Origin: Comamonadaceae bacterium
Lineage (GTDB): Bacteria > Pseudomonadota > Gammaproteobacteria > Burkholderiales > Burkholderiaceae_C
DNA: 64,000 nt
Direction: 5' to 3'
Assembly (NCBI GenBank): GCA_947442105.1
Contig: CANEVH010000003.1
Location: 31,704 to 95,703 of the forward strand
Below the pieces are notes generated by a model. It was given only the letters and a program-made list of their open reading frames with translations. It did no database searches and was not told where the DNA came from. Positions 1,832 through 30,264 of this stretch are shown piece by piece. Every line of letters starts with the position of its first letter. The stretch's first letter is position 1. The position numbers were made by a program, and so were the translations under genes.

Positions 1832-3439
1832 CTAAGGCAGCGGTCTTAATCCCAGCTCCAACAAAAAGGCGTTGTGCTTGCGCTTGGCGGCGTCTATGAC
1901 TTGCTTGATCTCGACCAAGGCCTCATGCGTAGCGTCCAGGCTGATTTCCGCCTCTCCCACTGCGGTGCTGATGTAGCGCGAGATATTGAGGTTGAAATCG
2001 TTCTTCTCAATCTCGGCCATGTCCACGCGACGCGCGTAGCGCGCCTCCGGCTCGCGGAACTGGTAGGTATGGATGATTTTGTCAATGTGCTCGGGCAAGA
2101 GCTGGTTTTGGCGTTTGCCTTTGACAAAGTGCTCGGCGGCGTTGATGAACAACACATCGTCTGGCTTCTTGCACTTTTTGAGCACCAAGATGCACACCGG
2201 AATGCCGGTGGAGTAAAACAGATTCGATGGCAGGCCAATCACGGTGTCAATGTGCCCGTCTTTGAGCAGCTTGGTGCGAATGCGCTCTTCCGCCCCGCCC
2301 CTAAACAACACGCCGTGCGGCAAGATGATGGCCATCACGCCCTCGTCTTTGAGGAAGTGAAAACCGTGCAGCAAAAACGCAAAGTCCGCCGCCGACTTAG
2401 GCGCCAAGCCGTGGTTTTTAAAGCGCACATCGTCCGCCATGGCCTCGCTGGCATCCCAGCGCAGGCTAAACGGCGGGTTGGCCACGATGGCATCAAACGA
2501 TGGCTTTTTGGCGGGGTTCAGCTCGCGCAGCTTGTCCCATTCGTTGGTCAGCGTGTCGCCGTGGAAGATTTCAAACTCGGTGTCCTTCACCCCGTGCAGC
2601 AGCATGTTCATGCGCGCCAGGTTGTAGGTGGTGATGTTTTTTTCTTGGCCGTAAATCTTGCCAATGCCGTGCGGCCCCATGCGTTTGCGCACGTTCAGCA
2701 GCAGCGAGCCCGAGCCACAGGCAAAGTCCATCACGCTCTCCAGCCGTTGCTTGTGCCCGGTCTTGGGCTCTTGGCTGTCTAGCGTGACGATGGTGGACAA
2801 AATGTCCGATATTTGCTGTGGCGTGTAAAACTCGCCCGCCTTTTTGCCCGAGCCTGCGGCGAACTGGCCAATCAGGTATTCGTAGGCATCGCCCAGCGCG
2901 TCAATGTGGGTTGAAAAATCAGCCAAGCCTTCGGCAATTTTTTGAATGACAGTGCAGAGCACCGCGTTGCGCTCGCTGTAACCCTTGCCCAACTTGCTTG
3001 AACCCAAATCAATCTCAGAAAACAAGCCCGCAAACGTGCTCTCAAAAGATTCGTTTTCGATGTACTTGAACCCTGCTTGCAAGGTATGCAGCAACTCGCC
3101 GTTCTGCGTGCGCGCCATGTGGGCCACGCTGCTCCACAAGTGCGCTGGCTGAATGACGTAATGCACCTTACGGCGCATTTGCTTCTCGAACGTGGGCACA
3201 TCTGCGGCGTTCGCGGCATACCAAACCGCCAGCGGCACTTGCTTGGCGTCAGCGTCTACTTTGGGGTAATCAGCGCCCAGCTCTTTTTGTGCGGCGGCCT
3301 CGTAGTTGTCGGACAGGTAGCGCAAGAACAGGAAGGACAGCATGTAGTCCCGAAAGTCGTCCGCGTCCATCGCACCGCGCAGCTGGTCGGCAATGGCCCA
3401 CAGCGTCTTGCCCAGTTGTTTTTGGTTTTGTTCGGTCAT
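1832..3439 (-). CDS. hsdM: Type I restriction-modification system methyltransferase subunit HsdM
   Basis: 535 aa; N-terminal HsdM bundle (LGKTLWAIADQLRGAMDADDFRDYMLSFLFLRYLSD), FACGSGSLL and NPPF methylase motifs. Confidence 0.95.
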   Translation of the reverse strand: MTEQNQKQLGKTLWAIADQLRGAMDADDFRDYMLSFLFLRYLSDNYEAAAQKELGADYPKVDADAKQVPLAVWYAANAADVPTFEKQMRRKVHYVIQPAHLWSSVAHMARTQNGELLHTLQAGFKYIENESFESTFAGLFSEIDLGSSKLGKGYSERNAVLCTVIQKIAEGLADFSTHIDALGDAYEYLIGQFAAGSGKKAGEFYTPQQISDILSTIVTLDSQEPKTGHKQRLESVMDFACGSGSLLLNVRKRMGPHGIGKIYGQEKNITTYNLARMNMLLHGVKDTEFEIFHGDTLTNEWDKLRELNPAKKPSFDAIVANPPFSLRWDASEAMADDVRFKNHGLAPKSAADFAFLLHGFHFLKDEGVMAIILPHGVLFRGGAEERIRTKLLKDGHIDTVIGLPSNLFYSTGIPVCILVLKKCKKPDDVLFINAAEHFVKGKRQNQLLPEHIDKIIHTYQFREPEARYARRVDMAEIEKNDFNLNISRYISTAVGEAEISLDATHEALVEIKQVIDAAKRKHNAFLLELGLRPLP

Positions 3440-4530
3440 GGGGTGCCGTCTTTAATGCTCAAATTTTTGTGTTCTTCAATGGCTTGGCGGTCGCGTTGCA
3501 GCTCTAGGCGCAGCTCTTCCTCACTGGGCAATATCAGGCGGTATTTGCTGGCAAACAGTTGTTCGCTGCCATTGAGCACCGAGTAGCGTGCCACCGATTG
3601 GTCTTTGCTGCCGCACAGCAAAATGCCCACCGTGGGGTTGTCGCCTTCGCCTCGGCGCAGCTCGTCGTACATGCGCACATACATATCCATCTGCCCCACG
3701 TCTTGGTGCGTCAGCGGCCCGGTTTTCAGGTCGATCAGCACAAAGCATTTGAGCAGGTAGTTGTAAAACACCAGGTCGATGTAGAAGTCTTGCGTTTCGG
3801 TACTGATGCGCTGCTGGCGGGCCACGAACGCAAAGCCCTTGCCCAGCTCCATCAAAAACTGCTGCAGCTTGTCCATCAGCGCAGTTTCCAGCGTGGCTTC
3901 TAGCAAGCGCCCCGTGTCGGGCAGGCCCAAAAACTCCAACATCACCGGGTCGCGCACAAAAGCCCGTGGTGAGTCATCGAGCGTGGCCATGTTGGCTATT
4001 GCCTCGGCATTTACCGCCGCTTTGTCTTGGCTTAGCAAAAGACGGTCGTAATACAGGCTGCCAATTTGGCGCTCCAGCGCCCGCGTGCTCCAGTTTTGGG
4101 TGGCTGCCTCATTCACATACCACTGGCGGGCCTCTGGGCTGTCCACCCGCAGCAGCAGGCGGTAGTGCGTCCAGCTCAATTCGTGACGCAGTGCGTCACG
4201 AATTGGAAATGCCTGATAAAAGAGCCTCATATACCGAAGGTTGGACGCATCAAACCCGCGCCCAAACTCAGCAGACAGCGCCTGCCCCAGCTGCACCAGC
4301 AAGCCCCGCCCATAGGCTGCCCGCTGTGCCCCGCCTTGTTCAAACTCCACAATGTGCTGCCCAATGTGCCAGTAGGTTTGCACCTGCACCACGTCCACCG
4401 CACGCAGCACTTGCTGGCGTGATTCGGCAATGAGTTGGCGCAGGCTGCCAAGCAAAGCGGGCAAGTCCTCGACAAGTCCCGTCGAGAGGCGATCTCTATC
4501 TTGGTGGGGTTGTGAGCTGCGCGGTGTCAT
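3436..4530 (-). CDS. DUF1016/YhcG-like PDDEXK nuclease domain protein
   Basis: 364 aa; LSWTHYRLLLRV and FYIDLVFYNYLLKCFVLIDLKTG motifs typical of the YhcG/DUF1016 family. Overlaps hsdM start by 4 bp. Confidence 0.85.
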   Translation of the reverse strand: MTPRSSQPHQDRDRLSTGLVEDLPALLGSLRQLIAESRQQVLRAVDVVQVQTYWHIGQHIVEFEQGGAQRAAYGRGLLVQLGQALSAEFGRGFDASNLRYMRLFYQAFPIRDALRHELSWTHYRLLLRVDSPEARQWYVNEAATQNWSTRALERQIGSLYYDRLLLSQDKAAVNAEAIANMATLDDSPRAFVRDPVMLEFLGLPDTGRLLEATLETALMDKLQQFLMELGKGFAFVARQQRISTETQDFYIDLVFYNYLLKCFVLIDLKTGPLTHQDVGQMDMYVRMYDELRRGEGDNPTVGILLCGSKDQSVARYSVLNGSEQLFASKYRLILPSEEELRLELQRDRQAIEEHKNLSIKDGTP

Positions 4531-5537
4531 TTTTGGGTTCGATTCTTCAGGCTATTTTCCAGCGCCTTCAACTCGGCTTCGTCCTGTCTGTCGGCTCGTG
4601 CGGCCTCTTGCTGTTTACGGCGTTGGTCAAAGTCCAAGAACATCGGCTCAATCTTTTGCTCCATGCGAGCATGGCTCACCTTACCTGCATGGGTGAGCAC
4701 CGTGAAGCCGTTAGAGCTGATGATCTGCTCGACGTTTTGCTGCCAAAAGGCCATGCGAATTTCTTGGCGACTCTTGGTGCGCAGCTCTGCGGTTTCTAGA
4801 AAGATCACCACCAGCCGGTTTAGGGTGTCGATCTCGTCTTCGGTCAAATAATTCTTTGCGATCAAAATATCTTGCTTGCGTACCTGCGCGCCTTTCCAAT
4901 GCATCAGACCAAAGTTGGGGTCGTTCGCATTGGCTCGGGCAGTAATCAGTTCCGCCGCAGTCTTTTGCGTGACCGCATAAAGCAGCATGTTTTGCACGGT
5001 CGCAAAAAACTGTTGGGTCGCTTGGTCTGTCTTGTCGTAATCGCTGCTCAGCGCAAAAAGCTCGCGCACCTTTTGGTAAAAGCGCTTTTCCGAGGCCCGA
5101 ATGTCGCGGATGCGCTCCAGCATCTCGTCAAAGTAGTCTGGGCGACCATCGGGGTTCTTCAGCCGCTCGTCGTCCATCACAAAGCCCTTGGTCAGGAACT
5201 CTTTGAGGACAGTGGACGCCCAACGGCGAAACTGCACACCACGGGGCGAGCGCACCCGGTATCCCACGGCCAGAATGGCATCTAGGTTGTAGAGCGTCAC
5301 TGGCCGTTGCACCTGTCGCGCACCCTCAGTTTGAACTGTCAAGGATTCCTTGACAGTTGCCGCCGGCTCCAACTCTCCGTCCCCGAAAACGTTCTTCAGG
5401 TGCAGGGAGATGTTTTGCTTCGTGGCATCGAAAAGCTCCGCCATCTCCAATTGGGTCAGCCATACCGTCCCCAGATCAGCCCGAAGCTGAATCTGGCTAT
5501 TGCCGTCGTCAGTCGTGTAAAGAATTACGTTGTTCAT
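4527..5537 (-). CDS. RhuM-family (virulence RhuM/Fic-associated) protein
   Basis: 336 aa; MNNVILYTTDDGNSQIQLRADLGTVWLTQLEMAELFDATKQNISLHLKNVF, characteristic RhuM N-terminus. Confidence 0.85.
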   Translation of the reverse strand: MNNVILYTTDDGNSQIQLRADLGTVWLTQLEMAELFDATKQNISLHLKNVFGDGELEPAATVKESLTVQTEGARQVQRPVTLYNLDAILAVGYRVRSPRGVQFRRWASTVLKEFLTKGFVMDDERLKNPDGRPDYFDEMLERIRDIRASEKRFYQKVRELFALSSDYDKTDQATQQFFATVQNMLLYAVTQKTAAELITARANANDPNFGLMHWKGAQVRKQDILIAKNYLTEDEIDTLNRLVVIFLETAELRTKSRQEIRMAFWQQNVEQIISSNGFTVLTHAGKVSHARMEQKIEPMFLDFDQRRKQQEAARADRQDEAELKALENSLKNRTQK

Positions 5538-6133
5538 CCTTGCAAGGGAGAGTTCTTACCGCCCAATTCGACCAGTCCATCCCTAAAAGCCTTGGCACTA
5601 GGGCATGCTGGATGCGCGGCTGCCCTTTCAAGCTCGTATCGCAACGCCACGCCACACATCTTTTTTGCAAAAATGACCTTGTTGCTGCCTGGCCCCCTGG
5701 AACGGTGTGCCTTAGCTACTTCTTTCAACCGCTCCCAAGGCATTCCAATAGTTTGCTCTGGTACGGGTTCAAAAAAATCTAATGCATTCAGCCAACGACG
5801 CATGGCATCGGTGTCGGCTAAAAACCAGGCCTCCAGCGCTTTGACCGCAATAAAAATCAAGTTCGTGTGCTCTGTTGTTATGCGGGCTTTGACCGCTTCT
5901 TCACTTGCTGCATCCTCCAGATCCGTCAATATCACTATGTGGTCGGGTTGACTGCGAGCAAATTGCGCCAACATGGTTTTGAGATGGTGCGGCAATAAAT
6001 TTCCGCCCCCTTTGGCATTGATCACGGGGCGACAAATTTCGAGCCCCTGATCGCCTGCCCATTTTCTAAATCCCGCGGACTCGATCAGAACCTTTTCGGA
6101 ATCCCCTTCAACGATGAACCCCACTTTCACCAT
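5534..6133 (-). CDS. DUF4276-like/TOPRIM-like protein, partner of adjacent AAA ATPase
   Basis: 199 aa; TOPRIM-like acidic motifs VEGDSEKVLIE and ILTDLED. Overlaps the AAA gene (start 6133 vs stop 6127) and rhuM (4 bp). Confidence 0.6.
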   Translation of the reverse strand: MVKVGFIVEGDSEKVLIESAGFRKWAGDQGLEICRPVINAKGGGNLLPHHLKTMLAQFARSQPDHIVILTDLEDAASEEAVKARITTEHTNLIFIAVKALEAWFLADTDAMRRWLNALDFFEPVPEQTIGMPWERLKEVAKAHRSRGPGSNKVIFAKKMCGVALRYELERAAAHPACPSAKAFRDGLVELGGKNSPLQG

Positions 6134-7245
6134 GGCAGGCCCCCATCAAACATGTTCATGAGCCATGCCGTGTCTAAGTTCAGGCCATCCAATGCTGAGC
6201 TACTTTGCGCCGCATTTTTGGCAACAGTTTTTCCCTCCAACTTATTGACCAGCCACAACTCACTCACCTTAGATGCACGAACCAATGACTCACTGTGCGT
6301 CGTGACGAAGACCGGGTGCTCGATGTTCGCGTTTTGGCGCATTAGGTCTACCAAAGCCTCGATGCCTTTGGGGTGCAGCCCACGCTCTGGCTCTTCTATC
6401 AGTGTGATGCCATGTTTTTTTGCGCGACTGAGTACAGCCGTCATGATGCACAGCGCGTAGATAGTTCCATCTGAAATAAGATTCGCAGGAAAGTGTGCTT
6501 TGGTACCCTCTTCCTTGAACTTAATCACCGTGCCGCCACTCAGGCGGTCAGGCTCGGCGCGAACCTGCTCCATGCCCGGCACCAAAAGGTTCATCCATTC
6601 CATTACCTGCGTGCGGAAATCATCATCCTTCTCAAGCGTCGCGAGCATCGTTGCAACGTTATGCCCGTTCGGGTGCAATGCGGTAGTGTCGGCGCTTGAA
6701 CCATCGGGCTCTTTCGCACCCAAGGGGTCAAAGCGGAAAACTTCGACGTTGGTCAAGTAGTCATACAGTGGAAACTCCCCTTGCGTAAACAAAAGCCCAG
6801 ACATGTCTGGCGGGAATTTTTCGATGAACATGGGCGCTTCATTATTTGAGGAGGAAATCTGGGGGTCGCTCCCTTTTTTCCTCTCCAAAATCTTCTTCCC
6901 GTTAACCACCAGAGTCTCATCTAGTACGGGAGCCGTGTCCATGTCATGCACCTTGAGGGTGTAAGCCAAGGCTTGCCCATCCAGGGTTGCACGGATGCTG
7001 AATCCAAAGGTACGGGCATTGCGCCTTCGAAGCTTGAAGCTGTGAACTTGAGGAAAACCACGGAACTGGCGCAACGCCTTGACCGCCCCGGACTCAACGA
7101 CAGCACTGACGAAAGACAACGCATCCATCAAATTGCTTTTGCCAGAACCGTTCGGACCAGCAAACACGCTGAACGGCTCTAAATCCAAGAGTTGAAGATC
7201 GGCCACACTTTTGAAGCCCGAAACTTCGATCTGATCTATTTTCAT
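6127..7245 (-). CDS. AAA family ATPase (AAA_21/SMC-like, OLD/PARIS-type)
   Basis: 372 aa; Walker A GPNGSGKSN, Walker B LIEEPERGLHP, ISDGT and TTHSESL motifs. Confidence 0.85.
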   Translation of the reverse strand: MKIDQIEVSGFKSVADLQLLDLEPFSVFAGPNGSGKSNLMDALSFVSAVVESGAVKALRQFRGFPQVHSFKLRRRNARTFGFSIRATLDGQALAYTLKVHDMDTAPVLDETLVVNGKKILERKKGSDPQISSSNNEAPMFIEKFPPDMSGLLFTQGEFPLYDYLTNVEVFRFDPLGAKEPDGSSADTTALHPNGHNVATMLATLEKDDDFRTQVMEWMNLLVPGMEQVRAEPDRLSGGTVIKFKEEGTKAHFPANLISDGTIYALCIMTAVLSRAKKHGITLIEEPERGLHPKGIEALVDLMRQNANIEHPVFVTTHSESLVRASKVSELWLVNKLEGKTVAKNAAQSSSALDGLNLDTAWLMNMFDGGLPW

Positions 7246-7258
7246 TTTTTGTCCTTTT

Positions 7259-7324
7259 CTACTTAAACCAGCCCCGCATCTGGCTCTTGCCGTCTTCAGT
7301 GGTGCAAATTATCAGGTTGCTCAT
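7259..7324 (-). pseudogene. Truncated 5' fragment of a second rhuM-like gene
   Basis: Minus strand reads MSNLIICTTEDGKSQMRGWFK*, resembling the intact RhuM start MNNVILYTTDDGNSQIQL. About 38 of the first 48 nt match by hand alignment. Its ATG overlaps the hsdS stop (ATGA). Confidence 0.7.
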
Positions 7325-8583
7325 GCCTCAACCCCCTCCACCGAAGGAAAAAGCTGCCGCATCAAACCCTTTTTGTGGGTCTTGAGGATGTCGAGTTCTT
7401 GTGAGGCGGCGGTGATGAGGGCGTCGAGGGAGGCGAGGCAGTCGGCGATGCGTTGTTGCTCAGCAATCTTGGGCACGAGCAATCGCACTGACGAAAACAG
7501 GCTCTTATTGATGATGGGAACGGCTTGTCTTCCTGCCAGTAACGCGATGCGCTCCGACGCCTGTGAAAGCGCGAAATAAGCAAAATCATCAGAGTGCTTA
7601 GAACTGGGGACGACTGCATTGATCTGTTGATTCGTCGCACATTCGCGAACGTTCTGCGCTACCTTGCCAATCGTGGAGCCAATGGAAACGAAGAGGATGC
7701 TTCCGGCGCGTATGGGGCGGGTTTCCGCGAAACCCTCTGGGGTCAACGTGGTTTTGGTTTGATCAACAAATCGTAGGTCAGAAATGTCCGCAGGCGAAGC
7801 GAAAGGAATACCGCCGCCATAGAAAGCGGGTTGCGCTGTGCTGGGGGTGTTACCTGTGACAACCTTTCCAAACTCTCCGACAGACTGTTCCACCCAATCC
7901 CCTGTGTTTTGAAACTCCGGAAACCGCAAACGCGGTTGGGTTTCGCCTTCGCGGGGGAAGAGTTGTTGCATCAGCCCTTTTTTGTGGGTTTTGAGGGCTT
8001 CGACTTTGCGGGCTTGTGCGGAGATCAGTTGGTCGAGTGAGCTCAGGCAGTCGGCGATTTTTTGTTGTTCATTTGAACTTGGAGTTGGAATCTCAACCCC
8101 AAAAAACGCTTCCTTACTAATGTTTAAAAGGCCGTTGCTCCGCGCACCACTGGTGATGTGCTTTTTTAGTTGTTTTCCGTGAGCATTTGATTCAAAACAG
8201 TTTTGGAAAAAACCATTCGAATAATCGCTTTTCAAACGAAAGCAAATGAAAACGTTAGGTGCCGCAACCTCGCCCCAGCCTTGCAATAGATAGATACATC
8301 CTTCAGGAAATTTGAGTGAGTTCCCTTTGTTATAAACAAAGTCGCCATCTTTGACCAGGGTGTAAAGCTGATACTGATTGCCAGAGATATCTCTGCCAAA
8401 CTTCTCTGCTTGTGGAACAAAGCCAATGCCAGCAGAGATACTGACTGGTGTTAGCTTTTTGGCGCCAACCCTTTCGTTTACGGGAATGGAGACCTCTCCT
8501 AGAGAAACTGGCTGCCAAGGCGCAGCATCCCGAAACTCAGGAAACCGCCGCTTAGGCACTAGCCTTGTTTTCTCGCCGCTCAC
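7321..8583 (-). CDS. hsdS: Type I restriction-modification specificity subunit HsdS
   Basis: Two target-recognition halves, each ending in a similar coiled-coil repeat (QQKIADCLSSLDQLIS..LKTHKKGLMQQLFP and QQRIADCLASLDALIT..LKTHKKGLMRQLFP). Start proposed at GTG 8583 (VSGEKTRLVPKRRFPEF); the ORF track opens at 8628. Confidence 0.92.
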   Translation of the reverse strand: MSGEKTRLVPKRRFPEFRDAAPWQPVSLGEVSIPVNERVGAKKLTPVSISAGIGFVPQAEKFGRDISGNQYQLYTLVKDGDFVYNKGNSLKFPEGCIYLLQGWGEVAAPNVFICFRLKSDYSNGFFQNCFESNAHGKQLKKHITSGARSNGLLNISKEAFFGVEIPTPSSNEQQKIADCLSSLDQLISAQARKVEALKTHKKGLMQQLFPREGETQPRLRFPEFQNTGDWVEQSVGEFGKVVTGNTPSTAQPAFYGGGIPFASPADISDLRFVDQTKTTLTPEGFAETRPIRAGSILFVSIGSTIGKVAQNVRECATNQQINAVVPSSKHSDDFAYFALSQASERIALLAGRQAVPIINKSLFSSVRLLVPKIAEQQRIADCLASLDALITAASQELDILKTHKKGLMRQLFPSVEGVEA

Positions 8584-8714
8584 GGTGCCAGCCTCTTGGT
8601 GGGGTGGTCGGTAAGCAAGTTGCTCCACTGTCGGGGCAGCGGAACGAAGCCCTTACGGACATTCTCATTTCCAAACCTCTCGAATTCGATGGGGTTCCGT
8701 GTCTTGCGGTTCAT
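8580..8714 (-). CDS. Small ORF (44 aa), translationally coupled to hsdS; probable truncated accessory gene
   Basis: MNRKTRNPIEFERFGNENVRKGFVPLPRQWSNLLTDHPTKRLAP*. Its TGA overlaps the proposed hsdS GTG start (GTGA), and its leader duplicates that of the KilA-N gene. Confidence 0.45.
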   Translation of the reverse strand: MNRKTRNPIEFERFGNENVRKGFVPLPRQWSNLLTDHPTKRLAP

Positions 8715-8758
8715 GGGTTTACCTCGCCGGTGTTGTTATGGTCATGGCGCAGGCTCTT

Positions 8759-9604
8759 TCATCCTCTGTCCAGGGTGTCGGGATTCTTGAGCGCCTGCTT
8801 TTCATCTGCGCTCAGACGGCGTTCGACCTTTTTCACGTCTTCTGCCGCTGGCAGGCTCTCCGGGCGAATACCCCGGTTGAGCAAGGTATCGCGCACGGCT
8901 TGGTTGTTGGTGACGTGTTCGCGCGAAATCTTCGGCTCGCTGGACAAGCCGTGGGCGCGGGCGTTGTGGATGGTGATCTCGGTGGCGAAGTCTTTGGCCT
9001 TGAGGATGATGGTGGGCGCAAAGTCGGCGAGCGGGCGGCTGTCGGGCACGCGCCATTGGGCTTTCATAGCCTGGGTACTTTTGCCGAGTAAGGCGTGGTC
9101 GCCCTTGCTGCGGATGACTGCAAAGTCCTGGTTGCCGCCGGTGTGTTCGAAGATGAGCTGGGACAGTTCCTTTTCCGTGCTGGTGAGCTTTTTGCGGGCA
9201 GAGACGCGCTCGGCTTCCAGAAGCCGCTGCTCAATCAGCTCCGCCCGGCGGGTCTGCATGGCAAAGTAAGTTTGGGCGAAGGCGATTTCGGGCTTGCGGG
9301 GGTCACCGTTCTGGGCGATGAGGTAACAGGCGTAGCGGGTGAGCATGATGTCGTCGATCGCACGCTCTGTGCTGGAGCCGATGCGGACCATTTTCTTGAC
9401 GTCAGGAAAATGGTTTTCCACTGGATGACCAGACACCTCGCAGGCGGTTTTGGCCTTGGCGACCACAGCCTGAAAGTTCTCCCACTTGGAATAGCCAAGA
9501 AGCTGCTGGATATCCCGCGCCAGCCAATACTCAATGCCGGTTTCTGTCTGCTGGGCGTGGCCCTCGAAAGTGCCAGTCAGTGTTTGTATTTGGGATAGGT
9601 CCAT
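8759..9604 (-). CDS. dinD: DinD-like DNA-damage-inducible protein D
   Basis: MDLSQIQTLTGTFEG...YWLARDIQQLLGYSKWENFQAVVAKAKTAC...; matches the DinD/BRO-like pattern. Confidence 0.85.
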   Translation of the reverse strand: MDLSQIQTLTGTFEGHAQQTETGIEYWLARDIQQLLGYSKWENFQAVVAKAKTACEVSGHPVENHFPDVKKMVRIGSSTERAIDDIMLTRYACYLIAQNGDPRKPEIAFAQTYFAMQTRRAELIEQRLLEAERVSARKKLTSTEKELSQLIFEHTGGNQDFAVIRSKGDHALLGKSTQAMKAQWRVPDSRPLADFAPTIILKAKDFATEITIHNARAHGLSSEPKISREHVTNNQAVRDTLLNRGIRPESLPAAEDVKKVERRLSADEKQALKNPDTLDRG

Positions 9605-9635
9605 GGTGGGCTTCCTGTTGTTTGATGCGGGCAGT

Positions 9636-9923
9636 TCACCTGGAATGCGCACTCTTTGACGCTGATCTTTTTGCTGTTGAGACCTGCCTGACTTCTAATT
9701 GTGGCGAATTCGCCGTATTAAAAGCGAGGTTGTAAATCGACTCCCAGATACCCAAAAACTCCACCGTGTTGCGGTTGCGCAGCCAGTCAGCGATGAAGAA
9801 GTCCCCGTCCTTGGCGCGCAACATGTCGGTGAGTGAGATGTGATCGCCCTGGGGCGACGTAACCACGGCCACGCGGGTGCCCTGGATGTCCAGGGTGTTG
9901 GTTTTCGCTGTTTTCCGGTTCAT
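9636..9923 (-). pseudogene. KilA-N domain protein, frameshifted and truncated
   Basis: MNRKTAKTNTLDIQGTRVAVVTSPQGDHISLTDMLRAKDGDFFIADWLRNRNTVEFLGIWESIYNLAFN, then the KilA-N continuation NYGEFATIRSQAGLNSKKISVKE appears in another frame from about 9717. The remainder of the domain is missing. Confidence 0.75.
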
Positions 9924-10001
9924 GGGCTCACCTCTTCGGTGTTGTTATGGTCGTCAGCATCCCACGCCACTTCCTTGCTGCTTCCTTGCTGCTTCCTTGG
10001 C

Positions 10002-10607
10002 TCACAAGTCTTCTACCCGGTATTCGCTATAGCCTTCGTAGTAGTAGCTCACGTCAATGCCTTTCATGTACAGCGCGCGGTCGTTGATTTGGTCGGTCAA
10101 GGCGCCCTTGAGCAGGTGTTTGATTTCCAGGTCTTTCACCACGCTGCGCTCCATGGCCGACAAATATTCGGCTTTGTCCACCGCGTTCCAGTCGATGACT
10201 TGGCGGATTTCTTTTTTCAGCATCAAGTCGAGCCAGATGCGCGTAGCGCGCCCGTTGCCTTCGCGAAACGGGTGGGCCACGTTCATTTCTACGTACTTTT
10301 CAATGATTTGCTCAAAGTTTTGCTGCGGCATGGCGCTGATGTGCGCCAGCGATTGCTGCAAATACATGACGGGTGCAAACCGAAAATTGCCTTTGGCCAG
10401 ATTCACCTCGCGCACTTGGCCAGCAAAGGCATACACCTCGCCAAACAAATAGGCGTGGATGGCGGCCAGGCCTGCAAAGGTGCCCACTTCCATTTCGGCA
10501 ATGTCGCCGCTTTCAAAGAGCTGTTTGGCTTTTTGTTTGCTAAGCCTTTCTTCCGCCCGGCTGAGTTCGACTTGGCTGCTAATGCCCAGTTTGTTGCCTA
10601 AGACCAT
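10002..10607 (-). CDS. Fic family protein (putative AMP transferase)
   Basis: Fic core motif [13 protein letters not shown]-terminal SYYYEG fits a class III autoinhibitory (S/T)xxxE(G/N) motif. Confidence 0.9.
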
Positions 10608-12052
10608 GGTGTGTCCTTTGTGGGTATGGCTTGTTTCAACAGGGCCCTTCCCTGGTCGGTGAGGCGGTATTGCTGCAAGCGGCTGTTGGGTTTGTTGGGG
10701 AGGGTGTATTCGATCAAGCCACTGGCTTGCAAGCGGCGAATTTGCTTGTTCAGCTCGCCGGACACGCCTTGGTGCCCGAGTCCTTGCGCCAGTGCCAGCT
10801 TGCCCAGCGCCGTTGCATCAAGCATCAGCATCACCTTGGTCGCCAAGTTCGACTCTAGCTGTGACTCTGGCCGCGACTCTGGCCGTGACTCTGGCCGTGA
10901 CTCTGGCTCTAGGGTGACTTGCGGATTGACTTGTTCGGTCGCCTCTTCCTCGTGCACAGGCCTGCTGGCCGCAAAAGTGATGCGCAAAAAGTTCTCGGTG
11001 AAGCGAAAGCACGCTGGCCCATAAAACTCGGTGATGCGCGGCAGGCCAGAGCCCAGGTGCTCGACCATCTCTAGGTCTTTAAAGACGCGCATCAGTTCTT
11101 TGTTGCGGGGGATGGAGTAGCCCTCAAAAAACTCGGCCGGGGTCAAGCCCTCGGGCAAAGCGCAGGCGGAGGTGATTTCGATGCGGTCGGCAAATATTTC
11201 AAACTTGGGCGGCGCCTCGCGGCTGTAGTCGTTGTGGACGATGGCGTTGATTACCGCCTCGCGCAGGGCCACGGGGTTCCACAGGCGCACGTCGATGCGT
11301 TCTTTGGAGGTAATGGTGCTGGCGGTTTTGTTTTCTAGGTCCAGCTTGTCGAGCACGGCCTTGGTGGCTTTGATGAGGGAGCAGTAGCCATATTCGTTGC
11401 TCTCTATCAAGTGCACCCGGTCTTTGCCACGGTACTTGGCCACTTTGATGGACATGCCGTTTTCGTCGGCCAATAAATAGGCGGCGTAGTTGAGCGCGCC
11501 GTCTTCGGTGGTCAGTTCCAGATTGGTTTTGAACTGGCGGCCTAGGGGTTTGCGCTTTTCTTCATAGTAAATGCGCAGTTGCTCAAAGCTCAGGGCTTGG
11601 CGGTGCGCTTTGATTTTGCCGATGGAATTGCGGGTGCGGTTGGCAAACAGCCGCTCGATCATGGCGGTGGGCATGGGCTCGGCGGCGCTGCCCACGCGCA
11701 CAAAGCAACCCTTTTCGCTCAGGCCGTATTTCTTTTTGGCGTAGGGTTTTTCGCTGCCGCTGGCCACGATGAGCTTGATGCAGTGCACGCCCGCTGGTCC
11801 CTCAACTTCAAAGACATCAAACAAGCCCATGGCCGAGGGGCTGATGTTGTTTTTGATGCGGTCTTTGAGCTTGAGCATGTCGCCGTCCACATCGGCCACG
11901 CCAACACGCTGACCGTCTTTGTCGATGCCGATGTAGATGAACCCGCCCTCACGGCTATTGAGGAAGGCGACGACTTCTTTTTCAAGGTCAAGCTCGGGCG
12001 TGAGTTCGCGCTTGAGCTCAACGCGGTGGTTTTCGTGCAGGGGCTCAGTCAT
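10598..12052 (-). CDS. AlbA_2/Schlafen AAA_4-type ATP-binding protein with C-terminal winged-helix region
   Basis: N-terminal EFKRELT-like motif ([37 protein letters not shown]), [16 protein letters not shown] motif, C-terminal wHTH-like region. Confidence 0.85.
10851..10910. repeat. 12-bp in-frame tandem repeat (about 5 units) encoding ESRP repeats
   Basis: gactctagctgt / gactctggccgc / gactctggccgt / gactctggccgt / gactctggctct. Minus-strand translation [19 protein letters not shown]. Confidence 0.9.
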
Positions 12053-15000
12053 AGGCGCTCAGCCCCGATATATCTCGCCCCTGCGCACGCTTGGTCAGCA
12101 GCGGAATCAGCGCGGCCATGAGCGCTGTCTCGGCTTGGGCGCGGGCTTTCCAGCCCAGGTCCAGCGGGGCCATGAGGTCGGTCAAGGCGTCGGTGTCCAA
12201 AATCAAACGCTGCAAGATGCTGTCTACAAAGGTTTGCAGGGCGGCGGGGGCCAGGCCGTGTTGGGTGGCGATGGCGGCCAGCTCGGCATGGTCTTTGTCT
12301 TTTTTAAAGCGGGTGTAGCCGTCGCGGATAGCGGCCTCGCTCAAGCCCGCGCCTGCCTTGAGGGTGTTGATGTAGGCGGCAATGTCGTCGCGCTCGTTCA
12401 TGAACTTGGCGTCGGCGCTGATCAGGCCAATCAGCGCTTCGCGGCTCATCTTTTGCTTGCCCGGCGCTTGGCTACTAAAGCGCGACATGAGGCCCACGAT
12501 GTAGTCGTAGTCAATCACGGCGCTGGCAAAGAGCACAAATTCAAAGTCGAGCTGGTCTACCGCGTCCGTGGTGTCGCCACCCTCGCCTTGGCCTGCTTTG
12601 TCTTGCAGCGCTTTGAGGCGCTGCGCGGTTTCGAGGTACACGCCTTTGAAGCCTTGTTGGGCTTCTTTGGGCAAGATGTGCTCTATAGCGGCGGCGTTGT
12701 CCGGCGTGAGGTCGGTGTATTGGTCAAGCTGGGTTTTGAGGCGCTGCACTTCTTTGAAGTGGCCAATAAAGGCGGCGCGGGCTTCGTCGCCCTTGAGCTG
12801 GGGCACGGCCTCGGGCGTGCAGGGCAGGCCTTGGGTTTGCATGAAGTCTTCTAGGCGCTGCACCGCGCCTTGAAGCTTGTCGATGACAACAGGGGCTTTG
12901 TCCACCAGCCAAATTTCGCGGGCTTTTTCTTGGCTCTTCTCGCCAGAGAACAAAGCAATGGCAGCATCGACCGCGTCTTTTTGGTAGCGAAAGTCGAGGA
13001 TGTTGCCGTAGGGCTTGGTGCCGTTGAGCACGCGGTTGGTGCGCGAGAAGGCCTGTATCAAGCCGTGGTGCTTGAGGTTTTTGTCCACGTACAGGGTGTT
13101 GAGGTATTTGCTGTCAAAGCCGGTGAGCAGCATGTCCACGACGATGGTGATGTCGATCTTTTGGGCGGCTGGGTAGTCGGCATTGGGCCACTCCTGGGCT
13201 TTGATGCGCTTTTGAACGTCTTGGTAGTACAGGTCAAAAAAACCAATGGTGTGGTTGGTGCCGTAGCGGGTGTTGTAGTCCGCAAGAATAGTTTTAAGCG
13301 CGGCTTTTTTGCTGTCGGGGTCTACCTGGTTGTCTTGTTTTTCTTGCGGCAGGTCTTCTTGAATTTGCTGCACATCGGCGTTGCCTTCGGCGGGCGGTGA
13401 GAACACGCATGCGATGTTCAGCGGCACAAAGCTGGCGTCCGCCGCGTGCTTGGCCGCTTGTGCTTCTTTGAACAATGCGTGGTATTCAATGGCGTCGTTG
13501 ATGCTGGCGGTGGCCAGCACGGCGTTGAAGCGGCGGCCTGCGGTGGCGGTGTCGTGCTTTGCAAGAACAGCGTCAATCACCGCCTTTTTAGCCAGCGCCT
13601 CGCCGGGTTTGGCTACGTTTTTACCCTCGGGCTTGAAGTAGTCCACATGAAAGCGCAGCACGTTGGCGTCTTCAATGGCGTGGGTGATGGTGTAGGCGTG
13701 CAGCTGCTTTTGAAAAATGTCTTGGGTAGTGCGCAAGCTGGCTTGCTCGTCTTCAATCTGGGTGCGGCTGGCGTTGTCTTCAAAAATGGGCGTGCCGGTA
13801 AAGCCAAACAACTGCGCCTTGGGGAAGAAGGCTTTGATGGCTTTGTGGTTCTCGCCAAACTGCGAGCGGTGGCATTCGTCAAAGATGAAGACGATGCGTT
13901 TGTCTTGCAGCGGCGCGAGCTGCTCTTTGTAAGTGGCTTGGCCGCCTTTGCTGCGCTGCTGGTTGCGCTTGCTGTTTTCGTCCAGTGCCAAACCTAACTT
14001 TTGGATGGTGGTGACGATCACCTTGTCGGCATAGTCGTCCGACAGCAGACGGCGCACCAAGCTGGCGGTATGGGTGTTTTCCTCCACACAGCCTTCTTGA
14101 AAGCGGTTGAACTCTTCGCGGGTCTGGCGGTCCAGGTCTTTGCGGTCCACCACAAAAAGGCATTTCTCAATATCGGGGTTGTCTTTGAGCAGCGTGGACG
14201 CTTTGAAGGACGTGAGCGTTTTGCCGCTGCCCGTGGTGTGCCAGATGTAGCCGTTGCCACAGTTTTGCTTGATGCAGCCCACGATCTGCTTGACCGCATA
14301 GACCTGGTAGGGCCGCATCATCAGCAGCTTTTGCTCCGATGCGACCAGCACCATGTAGCGGCTGATGGCCTCACCCAAGGTGCATTTGGCGAGAAAGGTC
14401 TCGGCAAAGCGGTCGAGGTGGGTGATCTTGTGGTTCGCCTCGTCCGCAAACTGGTAGATGGGCAAAAAGCGCTCGTCTTGGTTAAAAGCGAAGTGGCGCG
14501 CGTTGTTGTTGGCGAAATACCAGGTGTTGCTGCGGTTGCTGACGATGAAGAGCTGCAAAAAGCACAGCAGCGTCTTGGTGTAGCCGTTGCCAGGGTCGTT
14601 TTTGTAATCAACGATTTGCTCCATGGCGCGGCGCGGGTTGACGTTGAGGGTTTTGAGCTCCACTTGCACGCAGGGCACCCCATTGATCAGAATCAACACG
14701 TCATAACGGTGGTGGCTGTTGTCCGTGTTGATGCGCAGCTGGTTGACCACCTCAAAGGTGTTTTTGCACCAGTCTTTGATGTTGACCAAGGTGTAGTTGA
14801 GCGGCGTGCCGTCATCGCGGGTGAAGGCGTTGATGCTGCGCAGGGTGCGGGCGGCAGTGAAAACATCGGGGGTGACGATGTCTTCAAGCAGGCGTTTGAA
14901 TTCGCCATCGCTCAAATTGACGCGGTTGAGCGCCTCAAATTTCTCACGGAAGTTGCGCTCCAGAGCGGCGCGGTCACCGATGTCGGCGCGGTATGCGTAT

Positions 15001-15107
15001 TTGAGGCTTTGCAACTTGCCGATAAAGCCGTATTCGATGTGTTCCTCTTTGACGGCATGTCCGGGTGCAGGGGGCTGCGGGCCGTACGTGAACTTCGGAG
15101 TAGGCAT
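12045..15107 (-). CDS. hsdR: Type I restriction endonuclease subunit HsdR
   Basis: About 1020 aa; PDDEXK-like region (CVQVELKTLN), Walker A HTTGSGKTLT, DECHRSQ helicase motif. Start proposed at MPTPKF; ORF opens at 15152. Confidence 0.95.
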   Translation of the reverse strand: MPTPKFTYGPQPPAPGHAVKEEHIEYGFIGKLQSLKYAYRADIGDRAALERNFREKFEALNRVNLSDGEFKRLLEDIVTPDVFTAARTLRSINAFTRDDGTPLNYTLVNIKDWCKNTFEVVNQLRINTDNSHHRYDVLILINGVPCVQVELKTLNVNPRRAMEQIVDYKNDPGNGYTKTLLCFLQLFIVSNRSNTWYFANNNARHFAFNQDERFLPIYQFADEANHKITHLDRFAETFLAKCTLGEAISRYMVLVASEQKLLMMRPYQVYAVKQIVGCIKQNCGNGYIWHTTGSGKTLTSFKASTLLKDNPDIEKCLFVVDRKDLDRQTREEFNRFQEGCVEENTHTASLVRRLLSDDYADKVIVTTIQKLGLALDENSKRNQQRSKGGQATYKEQLAPLQDKRIVFIFDECHRSQFGENHKAIKAFFPKAQLFGFTGTPIFEDNASRTQIEDEQASLRTTQDIFQKQLHAYTITHAIEDANVLRFHVDYFKPEGKNVAKPGEALAKKAVIDAVLAKHDTATAGRRFNAVLATASINDAIEYHALFKEAQAAKHAADASFVPLNIACVFSPPAEGNADVQQIQEDLPQEKQDNQVDPDSKKAALKTILADYNTRYGTNHTIGFFDLYYQDVQKRIKAQEWPNADYPAAQKIDITIVVDMLLTGFDSKYLNTLYVDKNLKHHGLIQAFSRTNRVLNGTKPYGNILDFRYQKDAVDAAIALFSGEKSQEKAREIWLVDKAPVVIDKLQGAVQRLEDFMQTQGLPCTPEAVPQLKGDEARAAFIGHFKEVQRLKTQLDQYTDLTPDNAAAIEHILPKEAQQGFKGVYLETAQRLKALQDKAGQGEGGDTTDAVDQLDFEFVLFASAVIDYDYIVGLMSRFSSQAPGKQKMSREALIGLISADAKFMNERDDIAAYINTLKAGAGLSEAAIRDGYTRFKKDKDHAELAAIATQHGLAPAALQTFVDSILQRLILDTDALTDLMAPLDLGWKARAQAETALMAALIPLLTKRAQGRDISGLSAYD

Positions 15108-15327
15108 GGGGTGGGCGTTGCGAGGGGGTTCGGCGAAGGGCGGTAGAAACAAACCACCGGGGGCGAAAATTTCATTCTAGGGGTCAAGCCTTGGACGCGG
15201 CACCCAAACCGTTAAAGGTTTAACAGGTATATCGACGGTGCGGGCAATGGCACGGCTTTGGTCTTGCGCCCGGCAATTTCAATACAAAAGCAGCCCCTGC
15301 CCCGAAGGACTGCCAGCAAGACCTCCG

Positions 15328-24408: not shown

Positions 24409-24843
24409 TTACCAGCAGCCGGCCGCCGGCGTGCGTGTACCAGTTTCGGTCACTGTCATGGTCGTACAGCTTGCGTCAGCGCTCACCTGCGTGCCTGTCG
24501 CGGATGCTTTAACGGTGTAACGCGAAGCGGTGGCTCTCGGCAAAGAGAAGCTGTAGTACTTGGTCAAGTCCGCCTGGCATTGCTGGGCAGACGATGCTGG
24601 CAGGGCCGCACCGGCATAGCTCATGGCCGTGGTGTAGATGCGCTCCATGTACTGCGCCTGCTCCACCAAACAGCCTTGCGCCGCATTGCGCCGCGACTTC
24701 GCCACGCTGCTCTGGTAGCTGCCAAAGGCAATGCGTGCCAGTATGCCGACGATGGCCACCACGATCATCAGCTCGATCAGGGTGAAGCCGCACAGGCGAA
24801 GGCGCCTTGCCTTGCGGGGCTTGGTTATATTGAGGACGGTCAT
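24409..24843 (-). CDS. pilE: Type IV pilin-like protein PilE
   Basis: GFTLIELMIVVAIVGILARIAFGSYQSSVAKSRRNAAQGCLVEQAQYMERIYTT. Confidence 0.88.
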   Translation of the reverse strand: MTVLNITKPRKARRLRLCGFTLIELMIVVAIVGILARIAFGSYQSSVAKSRRNAAQGCLVEQAQYMERIYTTAMSYAGAALPASSAQQCQADLTKYYSFSLPRATASRYTVKASATGTQVSADASCTTMTVTETGTRTPAAGCW

Positions 24844-27800
24844 TTCACGATCTCGCGCCAAGAAATACGGCGTGGCACCAGGCTACCGCCTTGCGTGCCT
24901 GTACTGTCATTACGGACCCCGGGAGCATTGCTGCCGCCGGTGTAATTATCCTTGCCAGTATTGCCCTGCACCACCACGTTATTACCCGGATTATTGGATT
25001 TGCCGATATTGCCGATGCCAAAGTCAATGGAGCTTATAGCCGCGCCATCAATGGTTTCGTCCGCAAATTTGTGATCGCGGTTGATATCAAAGTAGCTGGC
25101 GCCCAGGCTACCGCCATGGTAGGCGTCCATGGCATTCAAAAATCCCACTCCAGAACTCTGGCAGCTATTGGTGTTGATAATATTGCTGCTGACCAGCAAG
25201 GTAGGCGTCGTAGCATTGCGCACCGTTGCTGCAGAAAATACCTTCTCGGATACCGAGTCTGCAGGTGCAGTCCAATCCATCACCCAGCCGTCGCGCTTCA
25301 CCTGCCATACACCATCCACTTTCTGACTCATGTAGCCTTTTGCGGCGAAGGTTCGTGCGTTCACTGTATACCCGCCAGAAGTCCAAGCGGTACTCGTGCT
25401 TATCTCGCCTATTTGCGTAAGACCACATTGCGAAGTATCTGAAGCAGGCTTTCTTGTATTGGAGATGGTTGAGGTCGAACTACATTGCGCATCGGGCGGA
25501 TCAATCACCCCATACATGCTTTGCACCCTGGTACTGAGGGCATCAGTAGTTGTAGCAGTTAAATCGCTGCCTGTTCCAAAAAAAAGAAACCATTTATTCG
25601 GTACGTCAATACTGTTGTAACTGTTGGCTACAGTAATTCGGCTAGTAATAGGCTGAGCTATCCCGTTTTTTACCGCTGTGAAAATATGAGTCCCGAAGCT
25701 TATTACCGGTGTGCCCTGCGTACCTCTGATGCTCGACAAATCAAAGCGCCAGACGCGGCCCAAATAATCACCTGCATACGCATACTGCAAAAAACCACTG
25801 TTTAGACGCAAGCCAGGAGTCGCAAGACCGTTCGAAGTCGCATCATCGGTTGTAAACTTTCCGAGTAGGCGACCATCTGAGAGGCGCACGACAAACAATG
25901 CTGCTTTTGAATTAACGCTGTTGTACCCATTACCAAAAACAACAACTGGGGTTGAGTTTCCATCATTCAGGTAGGCAATCACTGGTTCACCCAGCAAATA
26001 GCCCATGTCTGGGTCTGCTGGATTCAGCGTTGATACCGCCGCTGGGTAACCGTCTTGGCCCCAGCGCATTGCGCCGGAAAAGTCCCAAACTTTGGTGGTA
26101 TCGACGCCCACAAGATTTTGGGTGCTGGGCGGTAGCACCTGAAGGCCATAAAGGCCCTTGGCGCCACGACCCATAAAGCCCACCAGGTAGTTGATACCAC
26201 TGGTTTTTGTACCGCCGACCACCGCAATATTTCCATCTACATAGTTGCGATGCGTAAAATTGGGGTCACTCAACATAGAAATATTAGGAATAGCCGCACT
26301 GGGTATATATGCGAAGCGCTCCTCTCCTGTCTCTGAATTGAAGCCGTGCAGCATTCCGTCGTTCGCGCCCACATACACGGTTTTGGTCGCATCAAAATAA
26401 ATGGGCGCGGAATTGATCATGGAACCCAATACATTGGAATCAAAGGCAGAGTTTGCATTGGTCGCATCAGTTCCTCGGTTTCGGTATACGCCGCCAGTAT
26501 TGCGCATTTCCTTGCTGGTGTCGCCGCGCAGATAGTTAACCACGTCCTTGCTTATATTGGTGGTTCCGATGGTTAATGTTGCAGTATTGGTGCTAAATAG
26601 TGATAAAGCAGTGCCGTTTTTGTAATAGATATTTCGGCTGGTATACCCTTGCGCCGGAGTATTCAACCGGGTAGTCAGTTTTTGGGCGGCAGTTCCCCCC
26701 CATGCGTCTTGGTAGCTCGCGGTATCGGCATCTGCGCCGGGTGTAACCGTGAATTTGGTGGCGGTTAAATCGCCGGTGAAATACTTTTGGTTGAATTTAG
26801 TTTGGAATAAATTGGTGCTGTCGCCAATTAGCTGGTTGCTGCTTGACCCGACGGCACCCGTGCTGGAGTTGCGGTCTAATATCATTCGAAATGCGATGTC
26901 AAGCGCGGTTCTGAGCGCGGCGGGGCTGGTGACTTTGGTATAGCTGACCGGGTCCGTGGTGGTAGGGCCGGTTGGCGCCGCACCTTCAACATAGCCGCCC
27001 CACTTCGCGGCGTACCACAGGGGGTCATTCAGGTAAGGATCCGCCACTGCAGACGCATCCTGGCCCGGTGGAGAAAAAGTTCTCAGACTATGCCCAGTTA
27101 AATTTCCGGCCTGATCAGGCAACATTTCGCAATCGGTTGGCATATCGTCGACGTTGTCGTAGTTGCAATAACCGACGTCTTTGCCAGGAGGCACGTTGAG
27201 ATAATAATAGCCCAACCGACCTCCACCATTGCGGGCGAAGTTTTTGGGTTGAACTACCAGATAGGGTCCATCTTTCGTAGACCCGGATACAACATATCCT
27301 ATGTTTTGTGTAGAACCACTCGATGTGCTCCCCCCATATTTTGGAGTTACTTTGACAGCTACTTCTGTCGTAGTTGCTGTTATTTCGTATTCCGCAATCG
27401 CATCCATGTCAAAGTCAAGACCCCAGGAACGATCGTCAAAATTAACCAGCAACTTCAAATAATATTGCCCGTTTGCATTAGCCAAATCTCTGGAGTCTAA
27501 AATGTAAATCCCAACTATCTGATTGGTCGGTTGAAATTGGTTTTTACCGTTGTGCAGGCTGTCGATGGTGCGCGCAAACGGCACGATGGATATTTTTTTT
27601 CCGCCTGAAAATGGTACCTCGATGCGCGGAAGCGGGCTATTCATCAACAGCGCAAAGGTATCGACGGTTGCGATATCGTGGCCGCTCACCTGCTGCAGTG
27701 AATGGGTTTTGCCAAACTTCGCCACGGCGGCTGCGTAATAGCTGCCCTGTTTGTTCGTGTCGTCAGGCGGCAGGCCTCGGACAGACCCTAGTCCTGCGGC

Positions 27801-29639
27801 CGTCTTGAGCGTGGGCGCACCGTCTGTACTGGTGCCAGATTCACCAATGAAGAAGCGGGTGGTGTCTGTGATCCCTTCCGCTGTGCCGATGTCGTCCGTG
27901 ATATCACCCACGTTCAAGGCTACGGTTGTGCTGTTGCTATCTACCTTGCCCTGCACATTGACCTTCAGTCCGGTCAACGCATTGCCGCTGGTTCCGGCAC
28001 CGAACTTGGCACCGGGCAACTGGTCTGAATCGAACGAAGGATTGACGCTGGAGATCACCATCTGGCTGGGCTTGGCGCACCAGTTGGCGGGTTTATACGG
28101 GTTTACCCAGTTTGGCAGTTTCAAACCAACTTCACCATCTTCGGCGGTATTGTCGTTGTTGTAGGCGTCGGTTTTAGTCTCACCGGCGAAGTAACGCAAG
28201 CCTTCGTACATCATTTCTGCAATCGGATTGCCCCAATCGGCATACTCACCTTCTTGCATAACGTGGTATCCGCCAGTCTCCATGCCCCAATTTCCATACG
28301 AGTTATTGGCAATACTCGGCAAGCCACCGGCGTCAACATATGGCGAAAGGTCTTCTCTGCCATTACGGTAGAGATAACTCTCATAATAGTATTTGTTTAC
28401 GTCGGTCTCGGTTCCTTTGCTGTAATTGAAGTTACGGATACGTATATTGTCTATTTGTGTGACAAGTGAGTCATTTGTTGGTCGGGCAAATACTCCGGTT
28501 TGAGCTGTTACCTCGCCGGTAAAACTGGCGATATTCTTGCGCAAACGTCCACCCGACAGGTTTTGGTCGTAGCTGCCGGTCAATAGTCCAAAATAGATGC
28601 TGTCATTCTCACCATAATCGTGCAGCACCCCTGTAGGCTTGAATTCTTCGTTTGGATATTTTTTGCAATTAACATGGTAACTAGCCGTGCAGACTTTCAC
28701 ACGTACCGTGTAATCTGTCGGCGTACCCTGATCGAAGGTCCAGATCCGCGCACCCCATGCTTTAGGATTTTTTATCACGCTCAATACCGGACGCTCTGCA
28801 GACGCCCAATCCCATACGCGCATGTTGCTATTGGTGATGACGCGCAGTAGTGGCGGGTAGTTGCTACAGGTCGCCAACACGGCGCATGCTTTGCCTACCG
28901 GGGGAAAGTCGGTACCTGTGTAGGTGTATTCTTTAGTCGGATCCACGCTCGCTGTATCTGTAAGGCTACCGAAAAAATGTCTTTTGTTGCTGGTGGGCTG
29001 CGACAGCGGCGTGTACTGGCTGATGTCATAGCCGTCCACCGCTGTGCTGGTGTATTCCTTGGCCCAGGCATGGCCTTCTTGCGGGATATAGGCGCGGCGC
29101 AATATCGTTTGGCCCGTCGTTGTGCCTTGCGTCGTTGTGTCGGTCGCGGTATCAACTTCGCGGTAGCCGCCGTACAGAGCCACCCGCAGCGCGTCTATGC
29201 GGCTGGTGGTGACATAGTTCAGGAAGTTGCCACTCCACTTCGCAGTGCATTTGCCCGCGCTTGCCGGTCCGGCCGGGGTAAACAGCCCATCGTTGTCGTC
29301 TGATTTGTTATTGCCGGAGTAGCTGTAGCAGTAGGCAGAGTTGAACAGCCCCACATAGGTAAAACCGGGCTTGAAGCGAACGTCCAGCACGCCATCGCCA
29401 TCCACGTCGCTCAGGTCGTTGTAGGCCGGGTAAAAGAGGCTGTTGTCGCGCGCCATGGTGAGCATGACCAAAGGGGTGCTGCCTTTGTTGGCATAGACCG
29501 AGGGGGCGGTCTCCGGCGTCGTGCCCAACACGTCGGCGGCCTGTACGGCACTGCAAAACCATTGCTGCACTAGGCAGGCACCGATCACGCCGCAGCGCGC
29601 CATGTGGCCGAGTTTTCTTGGGTGCTTTGTTTGACTCAT
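24840..29639 (-). CDS. pilY1: Type IV pilus tip adhesin/assembly protein PilY1
   Basis: [16 protein letters not shown]...[53 protein letters not shown] and C-terminal PilY1 beta-propeller ([27 protein letters not shown]-like). ORF-track start at 30074 overlaps pilX and is rejected. Confidence 0.93.
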   Translation of the reverse strand: [1599 protein letters not shown]

Positions 29640-29664
29640 GGAGATATTCCTTGCCAGTGCGGGT

Positions 29665-30264
29665 TCATTTCGGTAGGGCCAGGTAATAGGACTGCAATTG
29701 CGCAAACGCCCGGTTGCTGCCGGTTGCGCTGCGCACAGTAATGCGGTATTGCAGGCAGTTCTTCGGGTCGTTCGGGTCGCTGAGGTTGCACACAAAGGTA
29801 TCGCCCAAGAATTCGATGAGGTATTGCACGCCGCTGTCGGCCAACGCAGACTTGGTGCTTGGCGTCCATGTGGCCCACGCAACGCTGGAATCTTCCCAGC
29901 GCGATTTGCAGCCCTGTAGCGTGGGCTGCGAGCACAAGCCTGCGGTGCAGGGCGAAGGGTCAGTCCTGTCGCTGTTACATGCGGCAGCACTGAAACTTCC
30001 GTTAGGCAAGCCACTGGTCGTGGAGGCCCTAAAGCCGGCGTTGACAGTGCTGGCCACCGATTGGGCCTGGGCAACGCCTTCAGCGTAGCGCAGCGCGTTT
30101 TCGAGTGACTGAACGGCCAAACTGCGGTCCAGGCTATTGGCCGCCATGCGCTCTTCCACCACCAGGCTGCGCACGGCGGCGATACCTGCCAAGGTGACCA
30201 GCAACACCAAGATAAGTACGACGATGAGGGTGACGCCGCGTTGGCGCTGCATATTGCCGGTCAT
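29665..30264 (-). CDS. pilX: Minor pilin assembly protein PilX
   Basis: QRGVTLIVVLILVLLVTLAGIAAVRSLVVEERMAANSLDRSLA. Confidence 0.9.
   Translation of the reverse strand: MTGNMQRQRGVTLIVVLILVLLVTLAGIAAVRSLVVEERMAANSLDRSLAVQSLENALRYAEGVAQAQSVASTVNAGFRASTTSGLPNGSFSAAACNSDRTDPSPCTAGLCSQPTLQGCKSRWEDSSVAWATWTPSTKSALADSGVQYLIEFLGDTFVCNLSDPNDPKNCLQYRITVRSATGSNRAFAQLQSYYLALPK

Follow-up and report, generated by a model that had tools for sequence, protein, structure and literature searches.

PARIS combines an ATPase, AriA, with AriB, a TOPRIM effector of the DUF4435 type, and has been proposed as class 4 of the OLD nucleases. In this system AriA keeps AriB sequestered, and release by a DNA-mimic inhibitor allows AriB to cut tRNA-Lys (PMC11455837, PMC12409363); PARIS modules inside BREX operons are already known (PMC11341690, PMC12839542). 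RloB, which is related to OLD_TOPRIM, is known from type I restriction-modification (R-M) operons and from AbiLii (AbiL) (PMC10440598). The Hma-embedded candidates (HECs; PMC10855318, PMC12988326) include HEC-01, which is listed in PADLOC-DB v2 and is credited to a 2024 preprint by Payne et al. (doi 10.1101/2024.01.29.577857), as cited in PMC12988326 and PMC12255303. According to PMC12988326, experiments have shown activity for several HECs, HEC-06 among them; the paper makes no such statement for HEC-01. Among the papers searched, none names DUF4276, the family to which we assign the second protein of the pair described below.

We analyzed a 64,000-nucleotide stretch of a Comamonadaceae genome (the window), in which a type I R-M operon occupies 1.8–15.2 kb on the minus strand. 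The operon appears intact, with closely spaced or overlapping genes in the order hsdR, AlbA_2/HATPase, fic, a truncated KilA-N ORF, dinD-like, hsdS, HEC-01A, HEC-01B, rhuM, DUF1016/yhcG and hsdM. Its G+C content is 52–57% over most of its length, compared with 62–68% in the adjoining 16–24 kb, and this lowered value fits an acquired island. A first-pass annotation had described an AAA_21-type ATPase gene overlapping that of a 199-residue protein at 5534–7245, carried inside the operon; the coordinates and motifs are confirmed, and the pair lies between hsdS and rhuM–DUF1016–hsdM. The features of the operon are:

12045..15152, minus strand: HsdR (TIGR00348, 3.6e-112)
10598..12052, minus strand: embedded AlbA_2/HATPase_c_4 gene (domain matches)
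10002..10607, minus strand: embedded Fic gene, PDC-S04 (Pfam/PADLOC)
9636..9923, minus strand: short KilA-N ORF, 95 aa, running into the dinD-like gene (Pfam, 3e-6)
8759..9652, minus strand: embedded DinD/Bro-N gene, PDC-S13 (Pfam/PADLOC)
7321..8628, minus strand: HsdS (Methylase_S, 6e-28)
7259..7324, minus strand: remnant of a rhuM 5' end, a 22-codon ORF, MSNLIICTTEDGKSQMRGWFK, read as the left-hand scar of the cassette (comparison with the empty sites L119, L121, L122 and L124)
6127..7245, minus strand: HEC-01A, predicted ABC/SMC-OLD-type ATPase, 372 aa, putative sensor and regulator (Pfam AAA_21, PADLOC, AF2, Foldseek)
6127..6133, minus strand: 7-nt overlap ATGGTGA of the HEC-01A and HEC-01B genes (sequence; the same in nearly all relatives)
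5534..6133, minus strand: HEC-01B, DUF4276, TOPRIM-like putative nuclease effector, 199 aa (PADLOC, Pfam, hhalign, conserved acids, AF2)
4527..5537, minus strand: RhuM, complete gene, its ATG overlapping the HEC-01B stop at the right-hand junction (Pfam Virulence_RhuM, 9e-111; PADLOC PDC-S05)
3436..4530, minus strand: DUF1016/YhcG PDDEXK gene, PDC-S02, a second embedded gene (Pfam/PADLOC; absent from the empty-site relatives)
1832..3439, minus strand: HsdM (TIGR00497, 2e-115)

The two proteins match the PADLOC models of HEC-01 over their full length: HEC-01A matches PDLC04176 (7.7e-161, residues 1–372 of 372) and HEC-01B matches PDLC04191 (1.3e-82, residues 1–190). As judged by these matches, the pair is a member of the catalogued candidate defence system HEC-01, and the proposal that it represents a distinct new module is not supported. 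The window pair shares with HEC-01 the A-then-B gene order and the embedding in another defence system, but its host operon is type I R-M rather than Hma. The RhuM, DUF1016, DinD and Fic genes of the operon are likewise PADLOC candidates (PDC-S05, PDC-S02, PDC-S13 and PDC-S04), found by the same reasoning. The HEC-01A gene has its own ribosome-binding-like AAAAGGA ahead of it, and the overlap with HEC-01B is read as ‘W-stop’ in the first frame and ‘M-V’ in the second. Most informative comparisons of either gene give a dN/dS of about 0.05–0.1, the exception being HEC-01B of the window against that of L018 (0.41, a value resting on very few changes). Because intact homologues occur in several phyla and dN/dS is low, both ORFs are real genes under purifying selection. 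The genome from which the window comes (G000) holds three further ATPase–DUF4276 pairs of other HEC-01 subtypes (C25:7444-7962, C8:80841-81395 and C61:16957-17352), four in all. Elsewhere in the window, a region of lower G+C at 24840–30074 on the minus strand contains, as judged by eye, a very long ORF resembling a PilY1-type pilus tip protein with pilin-like genes on either side.

HEC-01A carries a Walker A motif (GPNGSGKSN), a signature-like LISDGT, a Walker B motif (LIEEPERGLHP) and TTHS, and matches Pfam AAA_21 (1.4e-27). Across 43 HEC-01A sequences, the residues of the Walker A and Walker B motifs, the signature and the H-loop are invariant. The AF2 model of the protein (pLDDT 90.9) finds its best Foldseek matches in Rad50, PtuA, retron PtuA, SMC and OLD heads (best E 4e-14). 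The PADLOC AriA models also recognize HEC-01A (3.9e-28), by way of the general AAA_21 domain, and the HEC-01A model scores far higher. Motifs and predicted fold together identify HEC-01A as an ABC ATPase of the SMC/OLD type.

The assignment of HEC-01B is less direct. The protein scores just above the Pfam cut-off for DUF4276 (1.2e-7; 32.6 bits against 30.2), which agrees with its earlier description as DUF4276-like. The acidic motifs VEGD and LTDLED had been likened to TOPRIM, and in an alignment of 42 proteins four acidic residues are retained almost without exception: E9 in 41, and D71, E/D73 and E101 in all 42, with the complete quartet in 41 of the 42. These motifs are not due to chance. 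The spacing of the acidic residues matches that of TOPRIM, with a glutamate after strand 1 and DxE/D after a later strand; in the AF2 model (pLDDT 90.6), E9 stands just past strand 2–8 and D71 ends strand 65–71. In hhalign comparisons HEC-01B aligns with OLD-TOPRIM at 93%, a value that none of 100 block-shuffled profiles reaches, with other DUF4276 proteins at 99% and with the RloB profile at 57–68%; a comparison with DUF4435 rested on two sequences only and is uninformative. Pfam gives no DUF4435 and no RloB domain (PF13707) in HEC-01B, and the PADLOC AriB models are not listed among its matches. A match to VWA_3 (0.0011) lies below the cut-off and was taken as chance.

The structural check recommended in the first-pass annotation divides: the fold of HEC-01A is that of Rad50, PtuA and OLD, and HEC-01B has no Foldseek match in the PDB at E ≤ 0.001, its weak matches being assorted alpha/beta folds. 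A sequence search of HEC-01B against the PDB gave nothing meaningful. A Rossmann-like domain with another role, such as nucleotide signalling or a scaffold, and no nuclease activity would account for this result. However, the presence of all four acids in 41 of the 42 proteins, the OLD-TOPRIM profile match above all 100 shuffles and a top viral fold match to an RloB-like protein (Foldseek, BFVD; probability 0.99, TM 0.49) argue against such a domain, which we consider improbable. Since the model has no significant match in the PDB, motif and profile are the basis of the TOPRIM assignment, and we describe HEC-01B as TOPRIM-like rather than proven TOPRIM, and as a probable nuclease effector.

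Relatives of HEC-01B are sparse, occurring in 4 of 201 genomes of the family and 3 of 369 genomes of a sample of the class (the genome of the window is included in both counts). When GTDB genomes were scanned, 47 loci were identified, distributed over Pseudomonadota, Bacteroidota and a small number of further phyla. The weak matches L015–L017 and L064 (21–36% identity) were not assigned to the same subfamily. The co-occurrence of the pair, raised as a check on the first reading, is borne out: HEC-01A or its remnant adjoins HEC-01B in 46 of the 47 loci, the exception being the remote match L064, and the 7-nt overlap is retained in almost every intact pair (4 nt in L050). Matches on plasmids are all from E. 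coli. Viral contigs in IMG/VR contain no relatives, and that collection thus lends no support to an origin on phages.

The pair occurs in type I R-M operons in the window, L018 and L019; among the pglX and pglZ genes of BREX in E. coli chromosomes and plasmids (L008–L012) and in ten GTDB loci (L020, L022, L025, L027, L028, L033, L034, L039, L043 and L045); and beside a Wadjet-type operon with JetD and SbcC/MukB-like domains in L035, with the same layout in L042 and L048. Stand-alone copies have housekeeping neighbours: trpE or trpG (L021, L029, L047), polA (L024), mgsA (L038), SelO (L014), transketolase (L056, L059) and FTCD (L054). The majority of the sampled copies lie outside any restriction operon, and the idea of a module tied specifically to type I R-M does not hold. 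The stand-alone pairs directly downstream of trpE/trpG (L021, L029, L047) come from two lineages, Sphaerotilus and Methylococcaceae, and may mark a recurrent insertion site. One genome has two different HEC-01-type pairs in tandem (L014, 5857–9200).

On the HEC-01A tree, the context labels require at least eight changes, and the R-M copies group together, with a BREX copy from Limnohabitans (L020, 89% identical) as their sister. It follows that the cassette passes from one host system to another and that R-M subunits cannot be a requirement for it. The R-M operon itself suggests how the pair arrived. In the empty-site relatives L119, L121, L122 and L124, the order is hsdS–rhuM–hsdM with stop/start overlaps at the junctions, and both the A–B pair and DUF1016 are absent. 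In the window, a 22-codon ORF beginning MSNLIICTTEDGKSQMR, a remnant of a rhuM 5' end, comes after hsdS, and HEC-01A, HEC-01B and the full rhuM then follow; L018 is arranged alike, but its remnant has decayed further. We read this layout of the hsdS–rhuM junction as the footprint of cassette gain at that site. The operon is a mosaic in other respects (3436–12052, minus strand): DUF1016, missing in the empty-site relatives, lies between rhuM and hsdM, and AlbA_2, Fic and DinD separate hsdR from hsdS, which adjoin each other in L121, L122 and L124. The KilA-N ORF at 9636–9923 (minus strand) looks like the stump of a further embedded gene.

Translational coupling inside R-M and BREX operons would also be expected if the two proteins were accessory subunits that modify the activity of the host system and confer no immunity of their own. 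This we consider very improbable, given two unrelated host systems, many stand-alone copies and related operons that keep all core genes without the pair. Taken together, the sequence comparisons point to an autonomous mobile cassette whose two genes travel together among R-M, BREX and stand-alone locations.

The BREX-1 operons of E. coli carry the HEC-01 pair exactly between pglX and pglZ. Of the 28 E. coli genomes with a pglZ matching this type, strain R18 has an ATPase and a TOPRIM protein in this position instead (PADLOC AriB, 9.4e-15; Pfam OLD-like_TOPRIM, weak). In another E. coli BREX operon the slot is empty. The corresponding slot holds an ATPase and a DUF4435 protein, that is, PARIS, on an Oceanisphaera plasmid, and a DUF262 gene (GmrSD-type) that overlaps the pglZ start on an A. 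baumannii plasmid. HEC-01 and PARIS are therefore alternative occupants of one BREX slot, and the exchange involving HEC-01 was observed in this analysis. Several BREX loci with HEC-01 contain other embedded genes in the pglX–pglZ interval. The BREX operons of L020, L022, L025 and L034 also hold a second ATPase pair, PDC-M25A/B, and L020 a third ATPase, AAA_15; HipA kinase genes are found within the HEC-01-bearing BREX operons of L028 (6310–7674) and L045 (3833–5155).

The shared slot, and the nesting of HEC-01 within type I R-M and BREX, both of which are inhibited by Ocr (PMC9122126, PMC11341690), raise the possibility that the module guards restriction. It would then sense the inhibition of methylation-dependent systems by Ocr, ArdA or other DNA mimics and respond with abortive infection, as PARIS does. 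Blocked restriction is a plausible candidate trigger. However, the majority of copies outside restriction operons weighs against a guard, a PARIS embedded in Salmonella BREX gave no response to Ocr (PMC11341690), and embedding alone may just reflect co-expression; we regard this reading as possible but unlikely. A stronger form of it, in which HEC-01 forms a second family of anti-anti-restriction guards, independent of the first, whose ATPase recognizes DNA-mimic inhibitors of methylation-dependent systems and releases a DUF4276 TOPRIM nuclease, is a speculative proposal that we think unlikely. If true, it would explain both the mutual replacement of HEC-01 and PARIS in the BREX slot and the nesting in type I R-M.

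The two genes decay unequally. Interruptions confined to HEC-01B are seen in seven loci (L010, L013, L036, L043, L045, L048 and L063), interruptions confined to HEC-01A in none, and four loci (L046, L058, L061 and L062) have both genes interrupted; in L021, HEC-01B is open and lacks E9. If lesions fell by gene length, the probability that all seven single lesions hit HEC-01B would be 6e-4, or 2e-3 without L043, where neighbouring genes also appear frameshifted, as in an error-prone assembly. Draft errors may account for some of the broken HEC-01B genes; the L010 type occurs in a complete E. coli genome. This pattern is consistent with an effector that is costly and an ATPase that is harmless once the effector is lost. 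The one-sided decay and the presence of some copies on plasmids might instead suggest a toxin–antitoxin or addiction module that stabilizes the operon or plasmid, with HEC-01B as toxin and HEC-01A as antitoxin. We find this quite improbable, because HEC-01A, a large ATPase that retains its catalytic residues, does not resemble an ordinary antitoxin, and most sampled copies are chromosomal. Because deletion of either gene of E. coli PARIS is non-toxic (PMC9122126), the loss of HEC-01B alone may reflect cost rather than a restrained toxin.

The ATPase type, DUF4276 with its TOPRIM acids, the linkage of the two genes, their mobility and the shared slot are read from the sequence. Sequestration, trigger, nuclease activity and abortive outcome are what we infer. 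We consider it likely that the window pair is a mobile, self-working two-gene phage-defence cassette inserted at the hsdS–rhuM junction, in which HEC-01A would restrain the putative nuclease HEC-01B. The pair would form a second defence behind restriction, most likely as a back-up module that acts autonomously by abortive infection. By analogy with PARIS, HEC-01A would hold HEC-01B inactive in a complex and would sense infection through a phage product or damaged DNA. HEC-01B would then be freed or activated by an ATP-dependent rearrangement and, as a metal-dependent nuclease, would cut RNA or DNA and halt growth before phages mature.

Compared with known systems, HEC-01 has elements in common with several. 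The ATPase fold of Septu PtuA is among the top structural matches of HEC-01A, but the Septu effector PtuB is an HNH protein and HEC-01B is TOPRIM-like. OLD nucleases and Gabija GajA (OLD classes 1–3) share the OLD-type ATPase head and the TOPRIM profile similarity; in these classes ATPase and TOPRIM form one chain, whereas HEC-01 has two separate overlapping genes, and the GajB helicase of Gabija has no counterpart here. RloB and AbiLii resemble HEC-01B through its top viral fold match, but differ by its lack of an RloB Pfam match and by the modest alignment with the RloB profile. The likeness suggested at the outset, to an OLD/PARIS-like module, is reasonable in that an OLD/SMC-type ATPase is paired with a TOPRIM-like protein and PARIS occupies the same BREX slot. 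HEC-01B is not a DUF4435 protein. HEC-01 and PARIS have in common the two-gene ATPase–TOPRIM design, the conserved TOPRIM acids and the interchangeable position between pglX and pglZ; they differ in the effector, DUF4276 in HEC-01B and DUF4435 in AriB, and the sensing of Ocr and the cutting of tRNA-Lys are features of PARIS itself. What this analysis adds is that: (i) the cassette is autonomous and mobile and (ii) HEC-01, PARIS and GmrSD-type genes alternate in one BREX slot. The shared slot makes the question of whether embedded modules guard host restriction directly testable, with the BREX-embedded HEC-01 copies of E. coli as material ready for laboratory work, and the exchange between HEC-01 and PARIS is the part most worth following.
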